Below, piece by piece: positions 5,559 to 47,388 of a stretch of 64,000 bases of DNA. The notes beneath the pieces were generated by a model. It did no database searches and was not told the DNA's origin. It saw nothing but the letters and a program-made list of their open reading frames with translations. Source of the stretch: Paraburkholderia megapolitana (lineage in GTDB: Bacteria > Pseudomonadota > Gammaproteobacteria > Burkholderiales > Burkholderiaceae); assembly GCF_007556815.1 (NCBI RefSeq), contig NZ_CP041745.1:930001-994000 (forward strand). The letters are read 5' to 3'. Each line of letters opens with the position of its first letter. Position 1 is the stretch's first letter. The position numbers and the translations under genes were made by a program.

Positions 5559-5582
5559 ACCGGGAAAAAGACGGGAAAGGGT

Positions 5583-5600
5583 GGCGAACGCGGGTTCGCC
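5583..5600 (+). terminator. Hairpin after the NRPS gene, possible attenuator or weak terminator
   Basis: Arms GGCGAAC and GTTCGCC (7 bp) separated by a 4-base loop, 25 nt after the NRPS stop. No U-tract follows, so a true intrinsic terminator is doubtful. Confidence 0.3.
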
Positions 5601-5698
5601 GCCCCGTTCCAGACTAGCGCCGATTTGCCGCCACCCCTTTCCTGGCGGGCGTTTGCCCGAATTGCTGTACTGCCCTCAGGGGTTTTATTGATTTTGAA

Positions 5699-5713
5699 TG
5701 ATATTGATTCTCG
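5699..5713 (+). promoter_or_regulatory. Putative Fur box upstream of the siderophore receptor
   Basis: TGATATTGATTCTCG matches the 7-1-7 Fur consensus (TGATAAT-N-ATTATCA) at 11 of 14 positions. It lies in an AT-rich island about 100 nt before the receptor start, inside an otherwise GC-rich region. Iron repression of the receptor and the transport genes behind it is the natural reading. No Fur protein is encoded here. Confidence 0.55.
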
Positions 5714-5813
5714 TTTGTATTAATATGCAGCGTTTATCGCAAAAACCCATCGGAAAACTCTCATCGGCGGCACTGCCGGCTCGTTATCGGTTCAATCGGG
5801 GAAGTCAAAAAAA

Positions 5814-8030
5814 ATGAGGAAGCAACAGGTCGGAAAGTCTTTTGGGCTGCGTTTGCGGCCGGGTCACGTCGCGCTGATGCTCGGCGTCATGGCGCTCGCC
5901 GCGCGGGCGCAGGAGGTCGCGCCTGCCGCTACCGCGCCGGCACCGGCGAAGGGTGCTTCGTCCGTGTCGGCGACTGCGACGGACTCGCACACGCTGCCGG
6001 CGATCAAGGTCAATAGTTCGGCGCAAAACCCGCAAGGCCCCGGTGTCGGCTACGTCGCAAAACGCTCGAAGACCGGCACGAAGACCGACTCCGCGTTGAT
6101 CACGAATCCGCAGAGCATCTCGGTCGTTACGCGCCAGCAGATGGACGACCTCGGCGCGCAGACCATCGATCAGGCGCTGCGCTACAGCGCGGGTGTCTAC
6201 ACCCAGGATGGCACCGACGTGCGTTTCGACCAGTTGCGCGGCCGCGGCTTCGATCTCGATTCGTACCTCGACGGGCTGCATCTGTACCAGTCGCCGCGCT
6301 TCGCGACACCGCGTATCGACCCGTACTTCCTCGAACGCATGGAAGTGCTGCACGGGCCGGCGTCGGTGCTGTACGGGCAAGGTAGCCCCGGCGGTCTCGT
6401 CAACTACGTAAGCAAGCTGCCGACCGAAGAGCCGTATCACGAAGTGATGATGCAGGCCGGCAATCACGATAACTACCAGTTGGGCTTCGACTTCAGCGGT
6501 CCGGTCGATGAAGCCGGCACGGTGCTGTATCGCGTGACGGGTATTGGCCGCACGGCGGAAACCCAGGTCAGCGCGATCAAGGACCAGCGAATCGCGATCG
6601 CGCCGTCCGTGACGTTGCGCCCGAACCGCGACACGACGTTTACGCTGCAAGGCAGCTTCCAGCGCGATCCGAACGGCGGCCTGTTCAATCCGGTCACCGC
6701 GAGCGGCACGATCATCTCGAACCCGAACGGCCACATCAGCCCGGGCCAGTACTTCGGCAATCCGAATACCGACGACATGCAGCGCACGCAGTACTGGTTC
6801 GGCTACCAGTTCGACCAGCGCCTGAACGACACCTTCAGCATTTCGCAGAACCTGCGCTATCTGCACATCGACGAGCGCTACTACCAGACCTCGATCACGA
6901 GCGCGCCCGCGGCCGACAATCGCACGGTGTACCTGTGGTCGAATACCGACGACGAGCACTACTCGCAGTTCGAAGTCGATACGCACGGACAGGCGAAATT
7001 CGCGACCGGTCCGGTTCAGCACACGGTGCTGCTCGGCCTCGACTATCAACGTACGTTGCTCGGCGACAGTTACGGCGGTGGCATTGCCGGTACGGTGAAC
7101 ATTTTCAATCCGAATGTCTCGGGCCTGAAAACGATCACGGCCAACCAGCGCGGCGACTGGTCGTCGAGCACGGTGGGTCTCTATCTGCAGGATGAAGCGC
7201 GCTATCGCAACTGGGTGCTCACAGTCGGCCTGCGCGAGGACTTCGTCGGCACGAACCAGCAGTTCACTTCGCCGGCCAACTCGTTCCCTCCGACAGGTCT
7301 CAATCACGCAAACGATCACGCGTTCACGTACCGCGCCGGTCTTGCGTATGAGTTCGACAACGGCATCGTGCCGTTCGTCAGCTACGCGAAGTCGTTCCAG
7401 CCGATCCTCGGTTCGACGTACAGCGGCGCGGCGTTCACGCCGACCACCGGCAAGCAGGTCGAAGCCGGTGTGCGTTATCAGCCGAAGGGATTCGACGGTT
7501 ACTTCTCGCTGTCGGCGTACAACCTGACGCAGGACAACGTCTCGACGACCGACCCGCAGCACCAGCAGTTCTCGATCCAGACGGGCCAGGTGCGCTCGCG
7601 CGGTATCGAAATGGAAGCGCACGCGAACGTCACCGAAAACGTGAAGCTGATCGCGTCGTACTCGTACCTGAACCAGATCGTCACCGAGAGCACGACGGCC
7701 AACTACGGCAAGCGCCCGACCTATGCGCCGCGCCATACCGCCGCGCTGTGGGCCGACTACACGTTCCATCAAGGGCCGCTGCGTAACTTCGGCTTCGGCT
7801 CGGGTGTGCGCTATGTGAGCCAGAGCGAGGGCGACCAGTTCGATTCGTTCCAGGTGCCGTCGCGCGTGCTCGTCGATCTCGGCGCGCACTACACGCTGAA
7901 GGACTGGACGCTCGCGTTGAACGTCAACAACCTGTTCAACCGCGAGTACATCGCCTACTGTAACCTCTCGTCCGTATGTTTCTGGGGTTCGACGCGGACG
8001 GTTCTCGGCACCGCGCGTTATCAATGGTGA
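5814..8030 (+). CDS. TonB-dependent ferric-siderophore receptor
   Basis: Outer-membrane receptor of 738 residues, importing the ferric siderophore with energy from TonB-ExbB-ExbD. An N-terminal signal peptide ends near ALAARAQ. The plug domain follows (typical SISVVTRQQMDDLGAQTIDQAL and LRGRGFD signatures, then ERMEVLHGPASVLYGQGSPGG). The rest is a 22-strand-type barrel rich in alternating aromatic residues, ending in an aromatic residue (ARYQW) as needed for Bam-dependent assembly. Length and motifs fit the FhuA/FoxA/FpvA siderophore class. A putative Fur box precedes it, and the NRPS ends 255 nt upstream. It probably recognises the product of that NRPS. There is no extra N-terminal signalling domain, so it is not a transducing receptor that works with a FecR-type regulator. 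Confidence 0.93.
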   Translation: MRKQQVGKSFGLRLRPGHVALMLGVMALAARAQEVAPAATAPAPAKGASSVSATATDSHTLPAIKVNSSAQNPQGPGVGYVAKRSKTGTKTDSALITNPQSISVVTRQQMDDLGAQTIDQALRYSAGVYTQDGTDVRFDQLRGRGFDLDSYLDGLHLYQSPRFATPRIDPYFLERMEVLHGPASVLYGQGSPGGLVNYVSKLPTEEPYHEVMMQAGNHDNYQLGFDFSGPVDEAGTVLYRVTGIGRTAETQVSAIKDQRIAIAPSVTLRPNRDTTFTLQGSFQRDPNGGLFNPVTASGTIISNPNGHISPGQYFGNPNTDDMQRTQYWFGYQFDQRLNDTFSISQNLRYLHIDERYYQTSITSAPAADNRTVYLWSNTDDEHYSQFEVDTHGQAKFATGPVQHTVLLGLDYQRTLLGDSYGGGIAGTVNIFNPNVSGLKTITANQRGDWSSSTVGLYLQDEARYRNWVLTVGLREDFVGTNQQFTSPANSFPPTGLNHANDHAFTYRAGLAYEFDNGIVPFVSYAKSFQPILGSTYSGAAFTPTTGKQVEAGVRYQPKGFDGYFSLSAYNLTQDNVSTTDPQHQQFSIQTGQVRSRGIEMEAHANVTENVKLIASYSYLNQIVTESTTANYGKRPTYAPRHTAALWADYTFHQGPLRNFGFGSGVRYVSQSEGDQFDSFQVPSRVLVDLGAHYTLKDWTLALNVNNLFNREYIAYCNLSSVCFWGSTRTVLGTARYQW

Positions 8031-8078
8031 TGGTCAGATGCTGTCGATTCACATGCAAGGCAGGCGGCCCATGTCGTC

Positions 8079-9053
8079 ATGCTGAACGGAAAGTCGCTTA
8101 AACGCGTTAACCGCGGGCGCCGCCAGGCGCTCGCCGGTCTCGGCGCGGTGGCGTTTGCCGCGTCGACTTCTGCCGCGGTCTCCGCGGCGGTTTCGTCTGT
8201 GGCTAGTGCTGCGTCTACGCCGGCGGCGTCGACGATGTCGCCCGCACTGCCGCGCAACGCGCGCATCGTCGTGCTCGACTGGGGCTTGATCGAAGTCGTG
8301 CTGTCGCTCGATGTCGTGCCGGTCGGCGTGTCGCGACCCGTGTGGTACACGCGGCTCGACGGCAATCCGCCGCTACCCGCGACGGTCGTCGATACCGGCC
8401 TGCTGTTCCAGCCGAATTTCGAAGTGCTCGAAGCGCTCAAGCCCGATCTGATCGTCGTGACGCCGTGGCACGCGCCGTTGCGTGGGTTGCTCGAGCGCGT
8501 CGCACCGACCTTCACGGTGACGATGTTCGGTCCGGGCCTCGATATCTATTCCACGGTGCGCACGGCAACGCGGCAACTGGCCGCGAAGCTCGGCCGCGAC
8601 GCCGAAGCCGATGTGCTGCTGCAGCGTACGGACCAGCAGATCGCTACAGCCGCGCAAGCTATCGCCACGACGCGCGACGTGCGCCGGCCGCTGTACCTGC
8701 TGCGGCCGCTCGACGGCCGGCACGTGGCGGTGGCCGGTCCGCACAGTCTGTTCGGCGGTGTGATGGGCGAACTCGGGCTCGTCAACGCGTGGCAGGGTTC
8801 GACCGATCCGCTCGGGATGGGCGAGACCGATCTCGCCGCGCTCGCGCAACATGCCGACTCGCAGGTCGTATTGTCCGGCACGCCGCCTGGTGTCCTCGCG
8901 GAGTTGTCGCGCAGTCCGCTCTGGCGTTCGCTGCCGTTCGTCGCGCAGCATCGCGTGCGGCAGATCGGCATGTTTCCGACTGCCGGCGGCCTCGTGGCGG
9001 CGACGCGCTTCGCGACCGCGCTTGCGCAGGCGCTGCAAGGAGTGTCTTCATGA
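8079..9053 (+). CDS. Ferric-siderophore periplasmic binding protein (FhuD-like)
   Basis: 324-residue class III binding protein that would carry the ferric siderophore from the receptor to the inner-membrane permease. The N-terminus contains RRQALAGL followed by a hydrophobic, Ala-rich stretch, which resembles a Tat signal. The mature part shows the FhuD/BtuF-type fold signature: ARIVVLDWGLIEVVLSLDVVPVGVS, then LFQPNFEVLEALKPDLIVVTP, a long connecting helix and the C-terminal lobe. It starts 48 nt after the receptor, and its stop overlaps the permease start (ATGA at 9050-9053), indicating translational coupling. The exact ligand is inferred from the locus only. Confidence 0.9.
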   Translation: MLNGKSLKRVNRGRRQALAGLGAVAFAASTSAAVSAAVSSVASAASTPAASTMSPALPRNARIVVLDWGLIEVVLSLDVVPVGVSRPVWYTRLDGNPPLPATVVDTGLLFQPNFEVLEALKPDLIVVTPWHAPLRGLLERVAPTFTVTMFGPGLDIYSTVRTATRQLAAKLGRDAEADVLLQRTDQQIATAAQAIATTRDVRRPLYLLRPLDGRHVAVAGPHSLFGGVMGELGLVNAWQGSTDPLGMGETDLAALAQHADSQVVLSGTPPGVLAELSRSPLWRSLPFVAQHRVRQIGMFPTAGGLVAATRFATALAQALQGVSS

Positions 9054-36222: not shown

Positions 36223-36238
36223 TGGCACGCTTTCTGCA
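36223..36238 (+). promoter_or_regulatory. Sigma-54 promoter of the allophanate/biuret operon
   Basis: TGGCACGCTTTCTGCA matches the sigma-54 consensus TGGCACG-N4-TTGCA with one mismatch, and the invariant GG and GC are exactly 10 bases apart. Transcription should begin about 12 nt further on, inside the palindromic operator. This fits nitrogen (NtrC) control of an operon releasing ammonia from ureides. It also shows that the ATG at 36222 overlapping this box is not a real start. Confidence 0.75.
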
Positions 36239-36246
36239 ATACGCAT

Positions 36247-36268
36247 CCAATCTTGTATTCAAGATTGG
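36247..36268. promoter_or_regulatory. Perfect palindromic operator, probable GntR/FadR-family site
   Basis: Arms CCAATCTTG and CAAGATTGG with a TATT spacer, ending four bases before the allophanate hydrolase ATG. The core TTGTATTCAA resembles TTGTATACAA-type sites of FadR-subfamily regulators. The operon's last gene encodes such a regulator, so autoregulated repression at the transcription start is likely. Confidence 0.7.
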
Positions 36269-36272
36269 ACTC

Positions 36273-38120
36273 ATGAACGATCAACTCAACACCCGGGCCG
36301 CTCTTTCGATCGAAACGCTAGGCGATCGCTACGCGCAAGGCACCCTCACGCCGACACAGTGTGTCGAGGCAGTGTTACAGCGAATCGAGTCGATCGACCG
36401 GCCCGAGATATGGACGCAACGCGTCGCCGCCGAAGCGCTATACGCGCGCGCCGCAGAACTCGAAGCGCTATACCGCGCCGGGGGCGTCTCGGTGCTGGAA
36501 CTCATGCCGCTGTTCGGCGTGCCGTTCGCGGTGAAGGACAACATCGACGTGGCGGGCATGCCAACTACGGCGGCCTGCCCGGCGTTCGCGTATACGCCGC
36601 ATGAATCTGCGTTTGCCGTGCAGCTTCTGCTGGAGGCCGGTGCAATTCTGGTCGGCAAGACCAATCTCGATCAGTTTGCGACGGGTCTCGTCGGCGTGCG
36701 TTCGCCGTACGGCGCGGTGCGCCAGGTGGAGTTTCCCGAACGTGTGTCGGGTGGCTCGAGTTCGGGTTCGGCGGTCGCGGTCGCGAGCGGTTGCGTCGCG
36801 TTCTCGCTGGGCACCGATACGGCAGGATCGGGGCGCGTGCCCGCAGGCTTTAACGAACTCGTCGGCCTGAAGCCGACGCTTGGGCTGGTCAGCAAGCGCG
36901 GCGTCGTGCCGGCGTGCAAAAGCCTCGACTGCGTATCGATTTTCGCCAACGATGTCGCCGACGCCTGGCACGTCCTCGCACAACTCGCGCGCTTCGACGC
37001 GTCCGATAGTTTCGCGCGCGAGGTGAGCGTGCTCGCTCCGACTTCGGCGCCGCCGCGCATCGGCGTGCCCGCGCGTGCGGAGTTCTTCGGCGATGGCGAG
37101 GCGGCTCAGGCATTTCAGGCGTCGCTCGATGGACTGTCGGAGGTGTTGCAGGCGCAACCGCTGCCCATCGATCTCACGCCGCTCACGCAAGTCTCCGCGT
37201 TGCTCTACGACGGCCCATGGGTCGCGGAGAGGCGCGCGGCTATCGGCGCATTCTTCGACGCGCAGCGCGATGCGATCGACCCGGTCGTCGCCGCCGTGAT
37301 CGCGAAAGCGGACCGCTACAGCGCAGTCGATACGTTCAACGCGCAATACCGTCTCGCCGAATTGAAACGGCAGGCCGACAAGCTCTTCGATGACATCGAT
37401 GTGCTGATCGTCCCGACCACGCCAACGCATCCGACCATCGCCGCGGTGCAGGCCAACCCGATCGAACTGAACAGCCAGCTCGGTTACTACACGAACTTCG
37501 TCAATCTGCTGGACCTGTGTGCGTTAGCGGTGCCGTGTGTGCGCCGCGGCGACGGTCTGCCTGCCGGCGTCACGCTGATCGCACCGGCCGGCGCGGATCA
37601 TCGGTTGGCGGTATTGGGTGCGCGCATTCAGGCGCGTTTCTTCGAGTCCGAGTCGCACGAAGCCGCCTGCATCGAATCGCAACCGTTGCCCAGCAGCGAG
37701 CCGTCGGTCGTGCTTGCTGTAGTCGGCGCGCATCTGCGCGGTCAGCCGTTGAACCGGCAATTGCACGAAGCAGGGGCGCGATTTATCGAAGCGACCCGCA
37801 CGACACCGGACTATCAGCTCTTCGCACTAGCCGGGACGACACCACCGAAGCCCGCACTCGCGCGCATGTCGGTGGCCACCGCACACACAAATGCAATCGC
37901 CATCGAACTATGGCAAGTGCCGCTGCGCCACTTCGGCTCGTTTGTCGCGCAGATTCCGGCACCGCTCGGGATCGGCACCGTGCAGGTTGCCGACGGCCGC
38001 AGCGTGAAGGGTTTCATCTGCGAGCCGGCCGCGCTTGCCGATCAAGCCGGTGCGCTCGACATCACCGCGCACGGCGGATGGCTCGCCTATCTGGACAGCG
38101 TCGCTGCACCGATTCAATAA
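36273..38120 (+). CDS. atzF: Allophanate hydrolase (AtzF-type)
   Basis: 615 residues from the ATG at 36273; an ATG at 36222 lies within the sigma-54 promoter and is rejected. The N-terminal amidase-signature domain has the Ser-cisSer-Lys triad: Lys88 in AVKDN, Ser162 in SGGSSSGSA and Ser186 in TDTAGSGRVP. The spacing matches AtzF. The C-terminal domain (about 450-615, PLNRQLHEAGARFIEATRTTPDYQLFAL) completes the allophanate hydrolase architecture. It cleaves allophanate to ammonia and CO2, the last step in biuret and cyanuric-acid breakdown. No urea carboxylase is nearby, so the allophanate source is not urea but most likely the biuret hydrolase in the same operon. Confidence 0.93.
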   Translation: MNDQLNTRAALSIETLGDRYAQGTLTPTQCVEAVLQRIESIDRPEIWTQRVAAEALYARAAELEALYRAGGVSVLELMPLFGVPFAVKDNIDVAGMPTTAACPAFAYTPHESAFAVQLLLEAGAILVGKTNLDQFATGLVGVRSPYGAVRQVEFPERVSGGSSSGSAVAVASGCVAFSLGTDTAGSGRVPAGFNELVGLKPTLGLVSKRGVVPACKSLDCVSIFANDVADAWHVLAQLARFDASDSFAREVSVLAPTSAPPRIGVPARAEFFGDGEAAQAFQASLDGLSEVLQAQPLPIDLTPLTQVSALLYDGPWVAERRAAIGAFFDAQRDAIDPVVAAVIAKADRYSAVDTFNAQYRLAELKRQADKLFDDIDVLIVPTTPTHPTIAAVQANPIELNSQLGYYTNFVNLLDLCALAVPCVRRGDGLPAGVTLIAPAGADHRLAVLGARIQARFFESESHEAACIESQPLPSSEPSVVLAVVGAHLRGQPLNRQLHEAGARFIEATRTTPDYQLFALAGTTPPKPALARMSVATAHTNAIAIELWQVPLRHFGSFVAQIPAPLGIGTVQVADGRSVKGFICEPAALADQAGALDITAHGGWLAYLDSVAAPIQ

Positions 38121-38155
38121 CCAACTTTCTCCAACACTCTGAAACGGATCACGCC

Positions 38156-39253
38156 ATGACCCATCGTCGCGATTTCCTCAAGCACGCAGGCCTGCTGACG
38201 CTCGGCTCGATGCTGCCTTTCAAATCGATCTTCGCGGCGAGTCCGCTCACGGTCGGCGCGATCTATGTCGGCGCGCGCGGCGACTACGGTTACAACCAGG
38301 CGGAAGCCGCGGCGGCGAACGTCGTGAAGAAGCTGCCCAATGTGAAAGTCGTCGAAGAAGAGAACGTGCCGGAAACGATCGCGGTGCAGAAGTCGATGGA
38401 GGCGATGATCGAACAGGACGGCGCGACGCTGATCTTCGCGACCTCGTTCGGCTACTTCGATCCGCATGTGCTGAAGATTGCCGCGAAGTATCCGAAGGTT
38501 CGTTTCGCGCATTGTGGCGGCCTGTGGAAGCAGGGCAACCCGCCGAACATCGTGAGCTACTTCGGTTATATCGACGAATGCCAGTACCTGAACGGCGTCG
38601 TCGCGGGCCATATGAGCAAGAGCAAGAAACTCGGCTTCGTTGCCGCGAAGCCGATCCCGCAGGTGCTGCGCAATATCAACGCGTTCACATTGGGCGCGCA
38701 ATCGGTCGATCCGTCGATCACGACTCACGTGATCTTCACCGGCGACTGGTCGATGCCGGTCAAGGAAGCAGAAGCGACCAACAGTCTCATCGATCAGGGA
38801 TGCGACGTACTGACCTGCCACGTCGACAGTCCGAAGGTCGTGATCGAAACTGCCGAGAAGCGCGGCGCAATGAGCTGCGGTTATCACGCAAGCCAGGCAG
38901 CGCTCGCGCCGAAGGGCTACCTGACCGGCGCGGAATGGGACTGGGCGACACCGTTCCGGCTCATCGTCGCCAATGCACAGGCGGGCAAGCCGCAACCGAA
39001 CATCCTGCGCGGCGGCCTGAAAGAAGGCTTCGTGAAGATGTCGCCATATGGCACGAAGGTGACGCCCGAAGCGAAGTCGAACGCCGACGCAGTCAAGGCA
39101 AAGATGATGGCCGGTCAGTTCGTGATCTTCAAGGGACCGGTCAAGGACAACAAGGGCGGTGTTGCGATTGCCGATGGCGTGAGTCATGTGCAGACGGACT
39201 ACGTGCTCGAAAGCATGAACTATCTCGTGGCGGGTGTGGTTGGGCAGATTTGA
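38156..39253 (+). CDS. BMP-family ABC transporter substrate-binding protein
   Basis: 365 residues with a signal peptide (MTHRRDFLKHAGLLTLGSMLPFKSIFA; the RRDFLK motif is Tat-like). The mature part is a BMP/PnrA-type binding protein: PLTVGAIYVGARGDYGYNQAEA at its start, ATSFGYFDPHVLKIAAKYPKVRFAHCGG and FGYIDECQYLNGVVAG. BMP proteins typically bind purine nucleosides or related small heterocycles and ureides. It starts 36 nt after the hydrolase gene and is followed by both permeases and the ATPase of its transporter. Here it probably binds biuret or a larger ureide. Confidence 0.88.
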   Translation: MTHRRDFLKHAGLLTLGSMLPFKSIFAASPLTVGAIYVGARGDYGYNQAEAAAANVVKKLPNVKVVEEENVPETIAVQKSMEAMIEQDGATLIFATSFGYFDPHVLKIAAKYPKVRFAHCGGLWKQGNPPNIVSYFGYIDECQYLNGVVAGHMSKSKKLGFVAAKPIPQVLRNINAFTLGAQSVDPSITTHVIFTGDWSMPVKEAEATNSLIDQGCDVLTCHVDSPKVVIETAEKRGAMSCGYHASQAALAPKGYLTGAEWDWATPFRLIVANAQAGKPQPNILRGGLKEGFVKMSPYGTKVTPEAKSNADAVKAKMMAGQFVIFKGPVKDNKGGVAIADGVSHVQTDYVLESMNYLVAGVVGQI

Positions 39254-39292
39254 TGTGCTTCGTTGCGGCGTGTCATTTCTCAAGGAGCGTCG

Positions 39293-40432
39293 ATGCTTAC
39301 TAACGCAAATGCCAACGCAAGTACCAACGCAAATGCCGCGCGGCTGGTTCTCGGCGTGCTGCCCGCATTGCCGACCTTGCTCGCGCTGACCGGCACGCTG
39401 CTGCTGTTCATGCTGTTTCTGCTCGTGCAGGGTGCGCCTGCACTCGATGCGATCGGGTTGATTTTCGAAGGCGCGTTTGGTTCGTCGTTTGCGTGGCAGA
39501 GCACCTTGCTGCGCGCTGCGCCGCTGATGCTGACCGCGTTATGCGTGGCGTTGCCGGCGCAGGTTGGCCTGATTGTGATCGGCGGCGAAGGGGCGCTTGC
39601 GCTTGGCGGGCTCGCGGCCGCCGTGATGCCGCAGTGGTTGCCGACCGCTACGCCGTGGTTCGTCGCGACTCCGCTGATGGCGCTCGCAGGCATGCTGGCC
39701 GGCGGCGCATGGATCGGCGCAGTCGGCGCGCTGCGTCACCGGCGCGGTGTCAACGAGACGATCAGCAGCCTGCTGATGTCGTATATCGCGATCGCGCTAT
39801 TCAAGTTTCTTGTCGAAGGACCGTTGCGCGATCCGGCGAGTCTGAACAAACCGTCGACGTTGCCGGTGCCGGATGCGCTGACTATCGGTTCGCTGCCGGG
39901 GCTCGATGTGCATTGGGGCTTGTTGTGGGGTGTGCTCGCATGCGTCGCGGCGTGGGTGTTCGTCAGGCACAGCACGCGCGGTTTCGCGATGCGCGTGGTC
40001 GGCGGCAACGTGCGGGCTGCGCGTCTCGTTGGTTTGCCGGTCGCGAGACTCGCGCTCGCTGCGTGCGTGCTCGGCGGTGCGGCGGCCGGTCTGGCCGGTA
40101 TGTTCGAAGTCGCAGCCGTGCAAGGCAGTGCGAATGCGGCTCTGCTCGTCGGTTACGGCTATAGCGGCATTCTCGTTGCGTTTGCCGCGCGCCAGAATCC
40201 GCTGGCGATTGTCGTTTGCGCGGTGATCGTTGGCGGTATCGAGGCGAGCGGCAGCTTGTTGCAGCGGCGCCTCGGTCTACCCGATGCGACCACGCTGGTT
40301 CTACAGGGATTGCTGTTCGCGAATTTGCTCGCGTGGGAAGCGCTTGGCGGACGGCTCGCCGCGTGGCGCGTGAAGTTGCAGGCGCTGGCGGCGACAGCGG
40401 TACCGGTTCAGATGGAGAAGACTCATGCCTGA
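39293..40432 (+). CDS. ABC transporter permease, BMP/RbsC-type (first)
   Basis: 379 residues from the ATG at 39293, chosen for AAGGAG seven bases upstream and the adjacent N-terminal Asn/Ala repeat (NANANASTNANAA). About eight to nine hydrophobic segments follow, with the branched-permease family motif (QVGLIVIGGEGALALGGL, RRGVNETISSLLMSYIA, GYGYSGILVAFAARQNPLAI). It pairs with the next permease to form the transmembrane channel. The next gene starts eight bases before its stop, indicating coupled translation. Confidence 0.9.
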   Translation: MLTNANANASTNANAARLVLGVLPALPTLLALTGTLLLFMLFLLVQGAPALDAIGLIFEGAFGSSFAWQSTLLRAAPLMLTALCVALPAQVGLIVIGGEGALALGGLAAAVMPQWLPTATPWFVATPLMALAGMLAGGAWIGAVGALRHRRGVNETISSLLMSYIAIALFKFLVEGPLRDPASLNKPSTLPVPDALTIGSLPGLDVHWGLLWGVLACVAAWVFVRHSTRGFAMRVVGGNVRAARLVGLPVARLALAACVLGGAAAGLAGMFEVAAVQGSANAALLVGYGYSGILVAFAARQNPLAIVVCAVIVGGIEASGSLLQRRLGLPDATTLVLQGLLFANLLAWEALGGRLAAWRVKLQALAATAVPVQMEKTHA

Positions 40433-41351
40433 CATGCATTCGCCGCTTGTGGTGTTGCTGTTGTCGTTGATCGCAGGTGCGATTCGCGTGAGCACGCCGT
40501 ATCTGTTCGTGAGTCTCGGCGAGTGTCTGACCGAGAAAGGCGGTCGCGTGAATCTCGGGCTGGAGGGCATTCTCGTGTCCGGCGCGATGAGCGGCTATGC
40601 GGCGAGCTATCTGTCCGGTTCGGCGTGGCTCGGTGTGCTTGCCGCGGGACTGGTCGGATTGCTGTTCGGTTGCCTGCACGGTCTTGTGTGTTCGTTGCCG
40701 CGCGTGTCCGATATCGCGTTCGGGATTGCGTTGATGCTGCTCGGTACGGGTCTCGCATTCTTTCTCGGCAAGCCGTTTATCGAACCGCAGGCGCCGATGC
40801 TGGCGTCGCTCGATTTCGGTCGCTGGACCGCCTCGTCGCAACTGCACAACGCGCTGCACATCAACCCCTTGTTTGCGATCGGTGTGGTGCTTGCCTTCGT
40901 CTTGCAATGGGGACTGCGCAATACGCGTTGGGGCATGACGCTCCGGCTCGTCGGCGATCACGCGGAGGCGGCGCGCGCGCTGGGCTATCCGCTCACACGC
41001 ATCCGTATCGCGGCCACCGCGGTGGGCGGTTTCTGCGCGGGTGTCGGCGGCGCTTATCTGTCGCTTGTCTATCCGGGCAGCTGGAACGAAGGACTGTCGA
41101 GCGGGCAGGGCTTGATGGCAGTGGCCCTCGTGATCTTCGCGCGCTGGCAGCCGCTGCGCTGTCTGTACGCGGCGTTGCTGTTCGGCGCGGCCGGTGCGCT
41201 CGGTCCCGCGCTGCAGGCGATCGGCGTGACGAGTGGCTACTACCTGTACAACGCGGCGCCGTATGTGCTGACGCTGCTGATCATGATCGTCAACTGTCGC
41301 CCGGACCGCACGCTTGCCGGCGCGCCGGGCGAGCTGAGTCTGACGCGCTGA
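40425..41351 (+). CDS. ABC transporter permease, BMP/RbsC-type (second)
   Basis: 308 residues with about eight membrane segments. Family motifs include TPYLFVSLGECLTEKGGRVNLGLEGILVSGAMSGYAA near the N-terminus and GLMAVALVIFARWQPLRCLYAALLFGAAGAL near the C-terminus, which form the conserved permease pattern. It forms a heterodimer with the preceding permease. The biuret hydrolase gene begins 24 nt downstream, so transport and catabolic genes are interleaved in the same transcript. Confidence 0.9.
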   Translation: MPDMHSPLVVLLLSLIAGAIRVSTPYLFVSLGECLTEKGGRVNLGLEGILVSGAMSGYAASYLSGSAWLGVLAAGLVGLLFGCLHGLVCSLPRVSDIAFGIALMLLGTGLAFFLGKPFIEPQAPMLASLDFGRWTASSQLHNALHINPLFAIGVVLAFVLQWGLRNTRWGMTLRLVGDHAEAARALGYPLTRIRIAATAVGGFCAGVGGAYLSLVYPGSWNEGLSSGQGLMAVALVIFARWQPLRCLYAALLFGAAGALGPALQAIGVTSGYYLYNAAPYVLTLLIMIVNCRPDRTLAGAPGELSLTR

Positions 41352-41375
41352 GATTCTCCGCAAGGATCGATAAAC

Positions 41376-42068
41376 ATGAACCGATACATCGAAGCCAGAC
41401 CGTACCCCTGGCCGTATAACGGCGATCTGCAAGCCGCGAACACTGCACTCGTCATCATCGATATGCAGACGGATTTCTGCGGCTACGGCGGTTACGTTGA
41501 CAAGATGGGGTATGACCTGTCGCTGACGCGCGCACCGATCGAACCGATTCGCGGTGTGCTTGCGGTGATGCGCGCACAGGGCTTCACGATCATTCATACG
41601 CGCGAGGGGCATCGTCCGGACCTCTCCGATCTCCCCGCCAATAAACGCTGGCGTAGCCGGCGCGCGGGGACCGACGGTGTCGGCATCGGCGATGCGGGTC
41701 CGTGCGGCAAGATCCTCGTGCGCGGCGAACCGGGCTGGCAGATCATCGACGAACTCGCACCACTGCCCGGCGAGATCGTGATCGACAAGCCAGGCAAGGG
41801 CTCGTTTTGTGCCACCGATCTCGAACTGATCCTGCGCACACGCGGCATCGAGAATCTCGTGCTGACCGGCATCACCACCGATGTCTGCGTCCACACCACG
41901 ATGCGCGAAGCAAACGATCGCGGCTTCGAATGCACCGTGCTGGCGGACTGCTGCGGCGCGACCGACCAGAGCAATCACGCTGCCGCGCTGCATATGATCA
42001 CGATGCAGGGCGGTGTGTTCGGCACGGTGTCCGATTCGCAAGCGCTGCTCGCAGCGCTCGGCGGCTGA
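41376..42068 (+). CDS. biuH: Biuret hydrolase (cysteine hydrolase, isochorismatase fold)
   Basis: 230 residues. The N-terminus (PYPWPYNG, then [27 protein letters not shown]) and body ([67 protein letters not shown]) agree closely with the biuret hydrolase of Rhizobium leguminosarum as I remember it. The catalytic triad is Asp29, Lys138 and Cys171, corresponding to Asp36, Lys142 and Cys175 of that enzyme. It hydrolyses biuret to allophanate and ammonia. The allophanate is then taken by the hydrolase encoded at the operon's start. An AAGGA ribosome site precedes the ATG. Substrate identity is from residue agreement, not assay. Confidence 0.88.
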
Positions 42069-42070
42069 TC

Positions 42071-43732
42071 ATGGCTGCCATCGGACAGTTGCCGGCGCGT
42101 TCCGGCGCCGCGGGCATCGAAGTGCTGGGTGCGTCGAAATCGTTCGGCGCGTTTCGCGCACTCGACGACGTCTCGATCAAGATCGCTCCGGGCACGATAC
42201 ACGCACTGCTCGGCGAAAACGGCGCAGGCAAGAGCACGCTGGTGAAGGGACTCGTCGGGTATGGGTTGCTCGACGAAGGGCAGATCGTCGTCGACGGTCG
42301 TGAGGTCGCGATTGCATCGCCGCGCGATGCGCAGGCACTTGGCATTGGCATGGTGTATCAGCACTTCACGCTTGCCGCGGGGTTGTCGGTAGAAGAGAAC
42401 CTGCTGCTCACGCGCGGTAGCCTGCCGTGGACGATCGACTGGAAAACCGAGCGCGCGGCACTGACCGTGTTCATGCAACGCATGCCGTTCAGGTTGCCGC
42501 TTGATGCGCCGGTCGCAGGGTTAGCCGCGGGAGAAAAGCAGAAGCTCGAGATCTTGAAGCAGTTGTACTTGCAACAACGCTTCCTGATTCTCGACGAGCC
42601 GACCTCGGTGCTGACGCCGCAGGAAGCAGATGAAGTACTCGGCCTGATGCGCGCGTTGACGACGCGCTGCGAATTGACCGTGTTGATGATCACGCACAAG
42701 TTTCGCGAAGTGATGGCGTACGCCGACGATGTGACCGTGTTGCGCAAAGGGCGCTGCGTGGGCACCTCGGCGGTGGTGAACACTGGGCGCGAGCAACTCG
42801 CGAACTGGATGATGGGCACCGCCGATGCGTCGTCCGGCTCAGCACCGTTGCATGTGCCGGCCGCGCCAGAACGCGCCGCACGCCGACCGGTCGATCGCGA
42901 GGCACCGGTACGGCTCGCGATGCGCGATGTCTCGATCGACGACGATCGCGGCCACACAGCGGTACGACACGTCACGCTCGATGTGCGTGCCGGCGAAATT
43001 CTCGGTCTCGCGGGAGTATCGGGGAACGGACAGAAAGAACTGGTCGAAGCACTGGTCGGCCAACGGCACCTTGCAGCGGGCGAAATGCGGATCGCCGACC
43101 GGCCGTATCGCGCGACTCGCGAAGAAATGACTGCGCTGCGCGTGTTCGCGATCCCCGAAGAGCCGTTGAAAAATGCCTGCGTGGCCGGCATGAGCATTGC
43201 GGAGAACCTGGCCTTGCGCGATTTCGATCGCGCGCCGGTTCGCCGCGGCGGCTGGCGACTCGACCGCGCCGCATTGCGCGCACGCGCCGAACGCCGGATT
43301 CACGATTTCAACGTGCGGCCGCCGGTCCCCGAGCGTGCGATCGGCACGCTCTCGGGCGGCAACGTGCAGCGCGCGGTGCTGGCGCGCGAACTCGGTCAAC
43401 CGGTGGACGTGTTGATCGTCGCGAATCCTGTGTTTGGTCTCGACTTCGCGTCGGTGGCCGACATTCATGCACGCTTGCTCGCAGCGCGCGATGCAGGCGC
43501 GGCGGTGTTGCTCGTTAGCGAAGATCTCGATGAGCTGCTCGAACTCGCGGACCGGATCGCGGTGATGGCGGAAGGCCGACTGGTGTTCGAAACACCGGCA
43601 GAGCAGGCCGAGCGTGCGGTGTTGGGTCAACACATGGCGGGGCACAGCAGCGAGCCAACGCATACGTCGGAGCGAGCCGCCGTGGCGCCGCAATCGTCAC
43701 GTGCGTCTGCTTACTCCGGAGCTAAACCATGA
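42071..43732 (+). CDS. ABC transporter ATPase, double-domain sugar/nucleoside type
   Basis: 553 residues from the ATG at 42071. Two ABC domains lie in one chain: the first with Walker [10 protein letters not shown], signature-like [10 protein letters not shown] and Walker [11 protein letters not shown]; the second with a degenerate Walker A (GVSGNGQKE), signature [15 protein letters not shown] and a Walker B of altered sequence ([13 protein letters not shown]). Such asymmetry is typical of the BMP/RbsA-type importers. It energises the transporter whose other parts are encoded upstream. It begins two bases after the biuret hydrolase stop and overlaps the next hydrolase gene by four. Confidence 0.92.
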
Positions 43733-44391
43733 CCGTCGAAATCGCCGCACAACCGGGACCGTTCGCATTCGACGCGTCACACACCGCGTTGATCGTGATC
43801 GACATGCAGCGCGATTTCATCGAACCCGGTGGCTTTGGCGAGTCGCTCGGCAATGATGTCTCGCTGCTTGCCGCGATCGTGCCGGCCGTTGCAGAACTGC
43901 TGGCGCTCGCGCGGACCGACGGCTGGACGATCGTGCATACACGCGAGTCGCATGCGCCGGATCTGTCCGACTGTCCGCCCGCGAAGCGGCTGCGCGGCAC
44001 ACCACGCATGCGAATCGGCGATCCGGGACCGATGGGGCGCATTCTCGTGCGCGGCGAACCGGGCAATGCGATCGTCGACGCGCTCGCGCCGGCCGCGGGC
44101 GAAATCGTGATCGATAAGCCCGGCAAAGGCGCGTTCTATGTGACCACGCTCGACGACGAACTGCGCGCACGCGAGATCACGCATCTGGTGTTTGCGGGCG
44201 TGACGACGGAAGTGTGCGTGCAGTCCTCAATGCGTGAAGCCAACGATCGCGGCTACACCTGTCTACTCGTCGAAGACGCAACGGCAAGCTATTTTCCTGC
44301 GTTCAAACAGGCGAGTCTCGAGATGATCCGTTCGCAGGGCGGCATTGTCGGCTGGACAGCGCCGCTTGCGGCGTTCACGATGGAGCGATGA
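43729..44391 (+). CDS. Second cysteine hydrolase (isochorismatase family), possible triuret or ureide hydrolase
   Basis: 220 residues, paralogous to the biuret hydrolase three genes upstream. It shares [68 protein letters not shown] and [23 protein letters not shown], with the complete triad Asp25, Lys130, Cys163. The substrate pocket differs (FYVTTLD for FCATDLE, TEVCV for TDVCV). Known pathways pair biuret hydrolase with a related triuret hydrolase, so triuret or another ureide is the likely substrate. The start overlaps the ATPase stop (ATGA), and its stop overlaps the next gene. Confidence 0.88.
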
Positions 44392-44795
44392 CCATGGATG
44401 TGAACCGCCCCGAAATCGTCGCCGAAGTGGCGGCGGCATTTGCCGACTACGAGCGCGCACTCGTTGCACACGAAGTCGATACGATGAACGCCTTGTTCTG
44501 GCATACGCCGCAGACCGTGCGTTACGGCATTGCCGAAGTTCAGCATGGCGGTGAAGCGATCCGCGCGTGGCGCGCAGACTGCGAACCGGTGCCGGTCTCG
44601 CGACGGTTGCATCGCACGGTAGTGACGACGTTCGGTAGCGACTATGCGACAGTCAGCACCGAATTCACGAGCGATGCGACACCGCTGCTCGGCAGGCAGA
44701 TGCAGACGTGGGCGAGACTCGGTGCCCCGCAGGAAACCGGCGCGGGCTGGAAGATCGTGGCTGCGCACGTCAGTCTGATTGCGGCTCCCGAATGA
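44388..44795 (+). CDS. AtzH-like (DUF3225, NTF2-fold) protein
   Basis: 135 residues; start overlaps the preceding gene's stop (ATGA at 44388-44391). The sequence ([57 protein letters not shown]) has the SnoaL/NTF2-like pattern of the AtzH group. AtzH homologs sit in s-triazine and cyanuric-acid gene clusters beside amidase-signature hydrolases, where their role is uncertain. Here no AtzE/AtzG pair is present, so it may support the allophanate hydrolase or act on a ureide intermediate. No assigned catalytic residues. Confidence 0.8.
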
Positions 44796-44830
44796 TCAAC
44801 CCTGAAAACCCGGCGAGGAGATCGCGCACC

Positions 44831-45580
44831 ATGTCCGAACACGAGACGAGCGACACGACACCGGCAGACGCAGAGTCTGACGCGACGAATGTGCCGAACG
44901 CACCGAACGCGCTGGCCGAGCAGGTCTATCAGCGGCTGAAGACCGACATCTTCAGTTTCCGGCTATTTCCGGGCGACCGGTTCTCCGAGAACGATATCGC
45001 GCAGTATTACGGCGTGTCGCGCACACCGATGCGCGATGGGCTGTTCCGGCTGCAACGCGAGGGTTATCTGGAGGTCGGTTTTCGGCGCGGCTGGAAGGTT
45101 GCGCAGATCGACTTCGATCAGCTCGATCAGCTTTACGATCTGCGTATCGTGCTGGAACTCGCTGCGCTCGAGCGCCTCGGCGCCGGCGATGCGCCGCATG
45201 CCGCCATCGATACACTCAAGGCGATATGGTGCATCGAGCCCGAGCAGCGCGAAAGCGATTCGGTAGTGATGTTCGCGATGGATGAGGATTTTCATCGGCA
45301 ACTCGTGGCGGCGACCGGTAACGGCGAAATGCTCCGGGTGCACAACGACGTGACCGAGCGGATTCGCATTGTGCGACGCCTCGATTTTCTGAAACCGCAT
45401 CGCACCAGCGCAACCTACGAAGAACACGGGAAGATGCTGCAACTGATCGAACGCGCGAGGGTGGCCGAGGCCAGCATCCTGTTGCGTGCGCATATTACGC
45501 AGAGCAAGCTTGAAGTGCGCAAGATCACACTGTCGATGCTCGCAGCGGCTCGCGATGTGAAGTTTCCGTTTGTTTCGTAG
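44831..45580 (+). CDS. GntR-family (FadR/FCD subfamily) transcriptional regulator
   Basis: 249 residues from the ATG at 44831, with GAGGAG about ten bases upstream. An ATG at 44792 overlapping the previous stop is an alternative. An acidic disordered N-terminus (about 1-30) is followed by a winged helix (LAEQVYQRLKTDIFSFRLFPGDRFSENDIAQYYGVSRTPMRDGLFRLQREGYLEV), then an all-helical FCD ligand domain with metal-type residues (DEDFHRQLV, EEHGKMLQLIERARV). It closes the operon and most likely binds the palindrome at 36247-36268, with a ureide or product as effector. Confidence 0.9.
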   Translation: MSEHETSDTTPADAESDATNVPNAPNALAEQVYQRLKTDIFSFRLFPGDRFSENDIAQYYGVSRTPMRDGLFRLQREGYLEVGFRRGWKVAQIDFDQLDQLYDLRIVLELAALERLGAGDAPHAAIDTLKAIWCIEPEQRESDSVVMFAMDEDFHRQLVAATGNGEMLRVHNDVTERIRIVRRLDFLKPHRTSATYEEHGKMLQLIERARVAEASILLRAHITQSKLEVRKITLSMLAAARDVKFPFVS

Positions 45581-45900
45581 TGCGCGTGGTGAGCGCGAAT
45601 TGAAAGCCTTGTAAGCGTAATTGCTAATCCAAGCGCTTCCGCGCGCGGGTACGCTCCCTTCGTACCCGCACCACCGCCTTCTCTTGCCCGATGTCACGCA
45701 TTCGACATCCGCCATCGGCAGCATGTCCGCCTGACTGGCCGATCAATGCCAGAGCGACAAGCCGGTCGCAGGTACGCTGGCATCGCATCACTCCGATCCC
45801 CGATTCCAGATCCGTGTGCCGTTCAGGCGCGCCTCTCGCACTCCGTCGGCAGAAAAGCAAACGCGAAGACAGCAGCAACCCCACAAGCAAGGAGCGAGTT
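45581..45900. other. Intergenic region with a 9-bp hairpin
   Basis: 320 nt between the regulator and the MFS gene. The hairpin arms GCGGGTACG (45645-45653) and CGTACCCGC (45661-45669) enclose a 7-base loop. It may end the preceding operon, although no U-tract follows. The MFS promoter must lie here. No coding sequence recognised. Confidence 0.45.
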
Positions 45901-47388
45901 ATGCATGACGCGGCAGATCCCCAAGGCTTGCGGCCCAGCAGTACGAAGTCGGTCCAGCAGTACATCGACGAACGCCCGATGTGGCCCGACGGAACGCATC
46001 TCCCGACGGTACCGATGACCGGCATGCAGTGGCGCATCTGGGCACTCGCGGCCGCCGGCAAATTCTTCGAAGGCTTCGTGGTGTTCATGACGGGCGTCGC
46101 GCTCCCGCTGATCTCGCGCGAGTTCGGCATCGGTGCCGCGCAGAACGGCCTGATCAGCGCGGCCAGCTTGATGGGGATTCTGGTCGGTGCGGTTGGTCTC
46201 GGTGGCATGTCCGATTACTTCGGGCGCAAGCGGATGTTCATCGTCGAGATGATCATCTTCGTCGCGTTTCTCGTGCTGCTGGTGTTCTGCACGAATTTCG
46301 TTTCGCTGGTGATCTGTCTGTTTGGTCTCGGCGTCGCGCTCGGCTGCGACTATCCGACCGCGCACATGATCATCTCCGAAAGTATTCCCAGCAGCGCGCG
46401 CGGCAAGCTCGTGCTGGCTGCGTTCGGTTTCCAGGCGTTAGGCGCGCTGGGTGGCACGGCGGTGGGCTTCCTCGTCCTGTCGACGATTCCGAATCTCGAT
46501 GCGTGGCGCTGGATGTACGGCACGGCGATCATCCCGGCTCTCGCCGTGACCATTGGTCGCTTCTTCATCACAGAGAGCCCGAGCTGGCTGCATATTCGTG
46601 GCGCCGTCGACCGCGCCGAAGCCGCCACACGTCGTCTGCTCGTACGCGCGCCGCAGTATCCGACGAGCATCGCGTTATCGCGTGAAGTCGAACTGGCCGC
46701 TGCCGGCCACGGCGGCAAGGGGAGCTTTCTCGCGTTGTTCGCAAAGCGCAACCGGCGCGCGACGATCCTTGCTTCGGTGCCGTGGTTTTTGCAGGATCTC
46801 GGTACGTATGGCATCGGCATCTTTACACCGACCATTCTTGCCGCGGCATTCGGTAGCAAGCCCGACCATGTGCGCAGCATCACCGATCTGATTCTCAACG
46901 ACATCCTCGCCGCAAAAGGGGCTGCGCTCATCACCATGCTGCTGATCGTCGGCATTGTGTTCGCGGTGATTCTCGCGGACAAGGTTGGGCGGATCTGGCT
47001 GCAGGTGGTCGGTTTTATCGGTTGCGCAGCGGGTTTGCTCGTTGCTTCGTTTTCCGATGGCTTTGAAGGATCGACCAAGACGGTGGTGATCTTCGCGGGC
47101 TTCATGTTGTTCAACTTCATGACCAACCTGGGCCCTAACGCGCAGACCTATCTGCTGGCCGGTGAAGTGTTTCCGACCGCGATTCGCGGTACGGGGGCGG
47201 GGTTTGCGGCGGCGGTCGGCAAGATCGGCGCGGTCGCGACTGCGTTCCTGTTTCCGATTCTGCTGACGGGCATCGGTACGGCGCCGCTGCTCTACATCCT
47301 CGTGGGCACGTCGATTCTCGGCGCGGTGGTCACGTGGCTATACCGCATCGAAACGAACGGGGTGAGTCTTGACGAGATCGGGCGCTAG
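45901..47388 (+). CDS. Major facilitator superfamily transporter (sugar/organic-acid:H+ symporter type)
   Basis: 495 residues from the ATG at 45901 with AAGGAG seven bases upstream; extension upstream was rejected. About twelve hydrophobic segments. Motifs of the sugar-porter/aromatic-acid MFS type are seen: GLGGMSDYFGRKRMFIVEM (loop 2-3), GCDYPTAHMIISESIPSSARGKLVLAAF, and the late GEVFPTAIRGTGAGFAAAVGKIGA signature. The substrate cannot be told: inositol, sugar acid, aromatic acid and phosphate-linked compounds are all carried by this group. No catabolic gene is adjacent on the right side. Confidence 0.88.
   Translation: MHDAADPQGLRPSSTKSVQQYIDERPMWPDGTHLPTVPMTGMQWRIWALAAAGKFFEGFVVFMTGVALPLISREFGIGAAQNGLISAASLMGILVGAVGLGGMSDYFGRKRMFIVEMIIFVAFLVLLVFCTNFVSLVICLFGLGVALGCDYPTAHMIISESIPSSARGKLVLAAFGFQALGALGGTAVGFLVLSTIPNLDAWRWMYGTAIIPALAVTIGRFFITESPSWLHIRGAVDRAEAATRRLLVRAPQYPTSIALSREVELAAAGHGGKGSFLALFAKRNRRATILASVPWFLQDLGTYGIGIFTPTILAAAFGSKPDHVRSITDLILNDILAAKGAALITMLLIVGIVFAVILADKVGRIWLQVVGFIGCAAGLLVASFSDGFEGSTKTVVIFAGFMLFNFMTNLGPNAQTYLLAGEVFPTAIRGTGAGFAAAVGKIGAVATAFLFPILLTGIGTAPLLYILVGTSILGAVVTWLYRIETNGVSLDEIGR

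Follow-up and report, generated by a model that had tools for sequence, protein, structure and literature searches.

Nine plus-strand genes at positions 36273-45580 of a 64,000-nucleotide (nt) stretch of the Paraburkholderia megapolitana genome (RefSeq assembly GCF_007556815.1, contig NZ_CP041745.1, positions 930,001 to 994,000; this whole stretch is hereafter the window) very probably encode the import of triuret and biuret and the degradation of both to ammonia, and we are highly confident that they represent a nitrogen-scavenging operon for these two ureides. The surrounding genome comprises 7.63 Mb in three contigs. An earlier note on this DNA had placed a nine-gene ureide operon here, and the gene set is confirmed, every frame being open with an ATG and a stop codon; one of the nine, an atzH-like gene, had been left unnamed.

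According to the proposed mechanism, nitrogen limitation would switch on a sigma54 promoter, while a GntR protein would stay bound to its start-site operator until a ureide is present. A BMP-type ATP-binding cassette (ABC) importer would bring in triuret and/or biuret. Triuret would be converted by TrtA to 1-carboxybiuret with release of one ammonia, 1-carboxybiuret would lose CO2 to give biuret, either spontaneously or aided by the AtzH-like protein, BiuH would hydrolyze biuret to allophanate and ammonia, and AtzF would turn allophanate into ammonia and CO2. The chemistry of TrtA, BiuH and AtzF has been demonstrated in relatives and would apply here by analogy; we infer the importer ligand, the AtzH-like step, sigma54 control, repression, the inducer and co-transcription. 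The features are as follows.

36223..36238, plus strand: sigma54-type promoter TGGCACGCTTTCTGCA (-24/-12), 10 of 11 consensus positions
36246..36269, no strand assigned: perfect 10-nt inverted repeat TCCAATCTTG-TATT-CAAGATTGGA, predicted GntR operator with the expected transcription start inside it
36273..38120, plus strand: atzF, allophanate hydrolase (amidase and AH_C domains, PF01425 and PF21986; TIGR02713 771.6 bits, cut-off 511)
38156..39253, plus strand: BMP/PnrA-type solute-binding protein (PF02608 Bmp; AtzT 6pi5 and 3s99 closest solved)
39293..40432, plus strand: ABC permease 1 (PF02653)
40425..41351, plus strand: ABC permease 2 (PF02653)
41376..42068, plus strand: biuH, biuret hydrolase (PF00857; NF050097 410.3 bits, cut-off 370; 6azo and 5bk6 best in the PDB; BiuH-type residues)
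42071..43732, plus strand: ABC ATPase with two ABC_tran stretches (PF00005)
43729..44391, plus strand: trtA, triuret hydrolase (PF00857; 6xix 320 bits; all discriminating residues)
44388..44795, plus strand: atzH-like gene of an AtzE-free class, candidate 1-carboxybiuret decarboxylase (PF11533; 79% identity to 2owp, Bxe_B1374)
44792..45580, plus strand: GntR/FCD regulator, predicted local repressor (PF00392 and PF07729; found together with the operator in the 32 intact loci of the genus)

The two cysteine hydrolases and the gene set around them

Both PF00857 hydrolases have an intact Asp-Lys-Cys triad, as the earlier note had stated. The first (41376-42068) passes the curated biuret amidohydrolase model NF050097 with 410.3 bits (cut-off 370), and among solved structures it is closest to the BiuH entries 6azo, 5bk6, 6azs and 6azn, in agreement with its earlier assignment to biuret. 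The second (43729-44391) reaches 251.2 bits with the same model, below the cut-off, and its highest-scoring PDB entry is 6xix, a structure of TrtA, the triuret hydrolase from Herbaspirillum sp. BH-1, at 320 bits, compared with 219 for the next enzyme, 6xjm. Positions at which TrtA differs from BiuH have been reported as F35, N41, A134, E160, Y187 and I205, with Q202 placed differently (PMC7948467). The second hydrolase carries F, N, A, E, Y and I at these six positions in addition to Q202, and the window BiuH carries Y, Y, S, D, T and V, plus Q. The TrtA triad Asp24-Lys129-Cys162 and Val157-Thr158 are all present as well. These findings support the assignment of the second hydrolase as the triuret hydrolase TrtA and sustain the earlier suggestion of triuret as its substrate. 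Contrary to the accompanying claim of different pocket residues, most of the first-shell residues compared are identical in the window TrtA and BiuH, and the differences lie mainly in the second shell.

Across loci L039-L083, the range covered by the residue test (the 80 named-genome loci described below lie outside it), the complete 15-position set is TrtA-type in 43 of 44 TrtA-labeled rows and BiuH-type in 37 of 39 BiuH-labeled rows. The single TrtA exception is L071, a decayed locus, and the two BiuH exceptions are more distant relatives, both in L073. A scenario in which triuret plays no part, both enzymes being biuret hydrolases arisen by duplication or the second acting as a generalist, is very improbable. 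The top NCBIfam match of the second hydrolase is indeed the BiuH model (251 bits), several relatives are labeled 'biuret amidohydrolase' in their sources, and a generalist BiuH exists in Rhodococcus sp. Mel (PMC7948467); yet that score lies below the cut-off of 370, TrtA leads the PDB matches by 100 bits, and the TrtA residue set is complete. Among the best 120 matches obtained with the second hydrolase, most named relatives belong to Paraburkholderia and Caballeronia and some to Cupriavidus.

The product of 36273..38120 has both the amidase and AH_C domains and exceeds the TIGR02713 cut-off, which identifies it as allophanate hydrolase AtzF. The genes are tightly packed, with 35 nt between atzF and the BMP gene, 39 nt between the BMP gene and permease 1, 24 nt between permease 2 and biuH, and 2 nt between biuH and the ATPase gene, whereas permeases 1 and 2 overlap by 8 nt and the last three junctions, from the ATPase to the GntR gene, by 4 nt each. 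Because the nine genes are separated by 2-39 nt or overlap by 4-8 nt, co-transcription as a single message is likely. A major facilitator superfamily (MFS) transporter gene at 45691-47388 comes after the operon on the same strand; as it has no match in the other loci compared, it probably lies outside the operon.

Conservation of the cassette and its control sites

Relatives of TrtA (E ≤1e-60) were found in 42 of 146 genomes, the present one included, 34 belonging to the same genus (again counting this genome) and eight to other genera of the order. The full order atzF-BMP-permease-permease-biuH-ATPase-trtA-atzH-gntR recurs in 27 of the 33 other same-genus loci (six of the 27 with an extra formamidase gene), the same order minus atzF in five (two with the formamidase gene), and one locus is decayed. 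Such retention of order in other same-genus loci indicates that the nine-gene grouping is not due to chance. The loci lacking atzF before the importer are L039, L041, L044, L058 and L064. In the decayed copy, L071 (G073), the ATPase falls into three matches, TrtA has S41 and H187, and AtzH is partial; the binding protein, permease and biuH gave no match in the 15 kb fetched.

Beyond this collection, the best 80 of 585 confirmed loci were taken as a named-genome set, at least five of which repeat a same-genus locus. The six-gene core BMP-permease-permease-BiuH-ATPase-TrtA is present in order in 65 of the 80. Among the other 15, nine are cut upstream by a contig end; in L119, L125 and L156, trtA instead adjoins AtzE genes, and the BMP importer is a distant one; L140 has trtA and atzF only, the genes of L121 are arranged differently, and the permease match in L152 is split. 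A formamidase gene is a frequent extra: 8 of the 32 intact loci of the genus have it, as do 32 of the 65 named core loci, mostly in the permease 2/biuH or ATPase/trtA gap and, in same-genus loci, in the latter. Examples are L195 (about 5468-6541) and L065 (about 8014-9010), and two examples exceed the NF009803 cut-off. In L093, L097, L112, L118, L130, L141, L147 and others, a gene of the AtzD family (cyanuric acid hydrolase/barbiturase) lies between biuH and the ATPase gene; the bearers are mostly Alphaproteobacteria, and within the named core set 9 of 65 loci carry such a gene on the same strand as TrtA.

A relative of the cassette, with atzF, BMP importer, formamidase, biuH, trtA and gntR, is carried by the Enterobacter cloacae plasmid pENT-784 (L205, 1799-11422). 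Its TrtA is 67% identical, it is flanked by two transposase genes, and it has no annotated AtzH. This cassette is matched in 28 of 72,556 plasmid records, mostly of Klebsiella, Enterobacter and Citrobacter; 18 hold at least 80% of it, and 21 match at 99% identity or more. No match was obtained in 5,426 E. coli genomes. TrtA-family matches (E ≤1e-40) occur in 78 Escherichia plasmid records, which may represent other hydrolases of the family.

The operon is preceded by a sigma54-type promoter beside a GntR-type operator, a combination that is new here by computation only. Promoters were scored over 11 positions of the consensus TGGCAC-N5-TTGCW with GG-N10-GC, and a strict pattern gave two matches in the whole window, both strands counted. 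A sigma54-type site with GG-N10-GC lies 29-31 nt before the operator core in the window and in all 32 intact same-genus loci. Scores of at least 9 are reached in 31 of these 33 loci, the other two scoring 8; after shuffling, 50 of 990 stretches of 280 nt contain a site that reaches 9. The inverted repeat at 36246-36269 ends three bases ahead of the atzF start codon. All 32 intact same-genus loci have its core, CTTGTATTCAAG (≤1 mismatch), ahead of their first gene, which is bmp in the five without atzF. Searched with up to two mismatches, the operator 16-mer has one site in the 7.63-Mb genome, and the reversed control pattern likewise gave one match. Since the expected transcription start lies inside the operator, the GntR/FCD protein is probably a local repressor.

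Some further observations weigh against this regulatory scheme. Outside the genus, the operator core is present in 4 of 12 loci from the 146-genome search, and it occurs in 21 of the best 80 of 585 loci, of which 21 eight carry the name Paraburkholderia or Burkholderia. Putative NtrC sites did not stand out clearly from shuffles (at least 9 of 12 positions in 25 of 33 loci and in 139 of 330 shuffles), which makes NtrC no more than a candidate activator of the sigma54 promoter. Moreover, an ntrC mutant of Burkholderia cenocepacia H111 has been reported to grow better, not worse, on biuret (PMC5491218), which would bear on this scheme if that strain carries the operon. When 14 of the 18 core-bearing loci outside the genus set (L206 included) were inspected, 12 had a sigma54-like site 14, 22 or 28-31 nt upstream of the core, and the Reyranella loci L106 and L158 had the core without such a site. 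Because the loci share kinship, the promoter and operator counts are not independent events. Scans for sigma70 promoters and terminators performed no better than on shuffles.

The AtzH-like protein and the binding protein

The window AtzH-like protein belongs to PF11533, formerly DUF3225, a name that one paper of the open-access literature searched uses. It shares 79% identity over 132 columns with 2owp (Bxe_B1374), a structure deposited as a hypothetical protein and placed in Paraburkholderia xenovorans LB400 through its UniRef name. For AtzH of Pseudomonas sp. ADP, conversion of 1,3-dicarboxyurea to allophanate by way of Tyr22 and Arg46 has been proposed, in a pocket that also holds Arg63, Arg66, Arg73 and Arg96 (PMC6219798). 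Tyr22, Arg46, Arg63 and Arg73 are kept in the window protein, and Cys66 and Ser96 replace the arginines. It thus has the family domain with the Tyr22/Arg46 pair expected of AtzH, and lacks the docked pocket residues Arg66 and Arg96.

Position 66 was surveyed in 140 AtzH-like genes (loci L039-L083, L085-L164, L195-L204 and L254-L296, with a few repeats of one genome). It is Arg in all 63 AtzE-adjacent copies and in none of the 64 copies from TrtA loci without AtzE whose upstream side is visible. The remaining 13 copies comprise five with AtzE elsewhere in a TrtA locus (three Leu, two Arg), one with AtzE elsewhere without TrtA (Arg), five with neither AtzE nor TrtA (four Arg, one Cys) and two with the upstream side cut by a contig end (one Arg, one Gln). 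This split by AtzE linkage fits a second class with a one-carboxylate substrate, namely 1-carboxybiuret from TrtA, and suggests that members of the AtzE-free class lacking Arg66, including the window protein, are 1-carboxybiuret decarboxylases. A proposal of two classes is advanced tentatively, as something short of an even chance: AtzE-linked proteins with Arg66 would act on dicarboxyurea, AtzE-free, TrtA-linked ones (window, 2owp) would decarboxylate 1-carboxybiuret to feed BiuH at once, and the BMP system would be a dedicated triuret/biuret importer.

The evidence is not one-sided. On the best tree (125 columns, 137 rows) the independent changes are few, as Arg66 changes four times and AtzE linkage five times; there are five independent pairs when all branches are used and only one on well-supported branches, which agreed in most of 200 pairings and showed no difference in the few others. 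These data do not permit a claim of significance. Arg66 and Arg96 variants are not among the five AtzH variants reported impaired (PMC6219798). The one Cys66 copy without TrtA, in L290 (G205), sits in a locus with a formamidase gene in the place of trtA. A competing explanation, which we consider rather unlikely, is that the window protein acts as AtzH on 1,3-dicarboxyurea or plays no part in triuret breakdown. It draws on the same unimpaired variants (PMC6219798), on the retention of Tyr22 and Arg46, and on L290, which keeps its AtzH-like gene with no trtA in the 14 kb fetched; in addition, the enterobacterial plasmid cassette has no annotated AtzH gene, so that the protein would be dispensable there. 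Yet dicarboxyurea would have no known source in this genome, where none of 13 matches to the AtzE model exceeds the curated cut-off and only one PF11533 gene exists; likewise, none of the 32 intact loci of the genus has an AtzE-query match on the same strand as TrtA. Furthermore, the atzH-like gene directly follows trtA in 32 of 32 of these loci, which argues that it is no decaying leftover there.

Returning to the decarboxylase reading, the activity may already be covered by a published name, as a carboxybiuret decarboxylase TrtB has been described to co-occur with TrtA (PMC12625717, PMC7948467); were TrtB the PF11533 protein, the decarboxylase part would already be known. Carboxybiuret itself has a published half-life of about 20 min. 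TrtB was also sought as the gene next to atzD. No AtzH homologue (E ≤1e-5) lay within about 1.5 kb in any of the 30 short loci of the AtzD family, so this route could not identify TrtB and was discarded. The window protein also scores 148.2 with NCBIfam NF033625 (HpxZ), above its cut-off of 135, and the HpxZ model and source names label it and its TrtA-operon relatives as oxalurate catabolism. As no oxalurate gene is found among the nine, the name may mislead.

The solute-binding protein is of the BMP type, as the earlier note had it, but its closest solved relatives, AtzT (6pi5, guanine, dissociation constant 110 nM) and 3s99 (modeled with adenine), bind nucleobases rather than nucleosides. 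AtzT of Pseudomonas sp. ADP (PMC6834077) shares with it the Tyr45/Trp194 sandwich, Ser97, Phe98 and Asn169, whereas Glu165 is replaced by Gln, Asn218 by His, Asn220 by Asp and Thr139 by Gln. In a comparison of 103 rows, the window included (108 less AtzT, 3s99, L198 and the distant proteins of L119 and L125), the purine-binding Glu165 is found in none; 89 rows have Gln, as does the window, and 14 have Ser, Thr or Ile, while Trp194 is retained in all 103. His218 and Asp220 are common to 3s99 and hence no mark of ureide-cassette binding proteins. The residue pattern suggests that the ligand would be planar, neutral and rich in amide groups, as triuret and biuret are. Some records call the importer purine-binding or nucleoside type.

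That the main substrate is another nitrogen compound (a purine base, an s-triazine such as cyanuric acid, or oxalurate), with triuret and biuret minor, is improbable in our estimation. The closeness of the binding protein to AtzT (guanine) and 3s99 (adenine), the HpxZ label of the AtzH-like protein and the 9 of 65 named core loci (best 80 of 585) that carry an AtzD-family gene on the same strand as TrtA would favor it. These are countered by the absence of an AtzD-family match from this genome and from the 32 intact same-genus loci, by the lack of any AtzE above the curated cut-off in this genome, and by the Gln in place of the purine-binding Glu165.

Published systems and biological meaning

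The description of the pathway as poorly known, made in the earlier note, does not hold. The route from triuret through carboxybiuret and biuret to allophanate, with operons containing trtA, biuH and atzF, was established in 2020 (PMC7948467), and clusters that also include a BMP importer and a putative decarboxylase followed in 2025 (PMC12625717); novelty at this level is accordingly low. In Herbaspirillum sp. BH-1 and Rhizobium leguminosarum 3841, homologues of TrtA, BiuH and AtzF with the same residue sets are found in one operon (PMC7948467); these systems differ from the window in species, and the paper mentions the decarboxylase TrtB. In ammonia-oxidizing bacteria, atzF, biuH, trtA, trtB and bmpA-nupABC are collocated, that is, the same enzymes with a BMP importer and a putative decarboxylase, and gntR genes are drawn in the same figure as these clusters (PMC12625717).

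The atzDGEHF cyanuric acid operon of Pseudomonas sp. ADP (PMC6219798) shares with the window AtzF and the AtzH family with Tyr22 and Arg46. It differs in that the window genome has no AtzD match and no AtzE above the cut-off, in the changes of Arg66 to Cys and Arg96 to Ser, and in its regulator, which is AtzR there and GntR/FCD in the window. Sigma54-dependent nitrogen control has been reported for that cyanuric acid system (PMC6834077). No publication on regulation of the present operon was found in the open-access literature searched. What would be new, on computational grounds only, is the promoter/operator pair, the AtzE-free AtzH-like class and an importer without the purine-binding Glu.

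Triuret and biuret are impurities of urea fertilizer (PMC7948467), and it therefore matters which soil bacteria use them. The present analysis would define a triuret gene set, tied to a nitrogen-starvation-type promoter, with conserved control sites in 32 other same-genus genomes, atzF being in place in 27. It also offers testable functions for the solved orphan structure 2owp and for an importer labeled purine-binding or nucleoside type in some records; what may now be tested is the promoter switch, the ligand of the importer and the proposed class of AtzH-like proteins.

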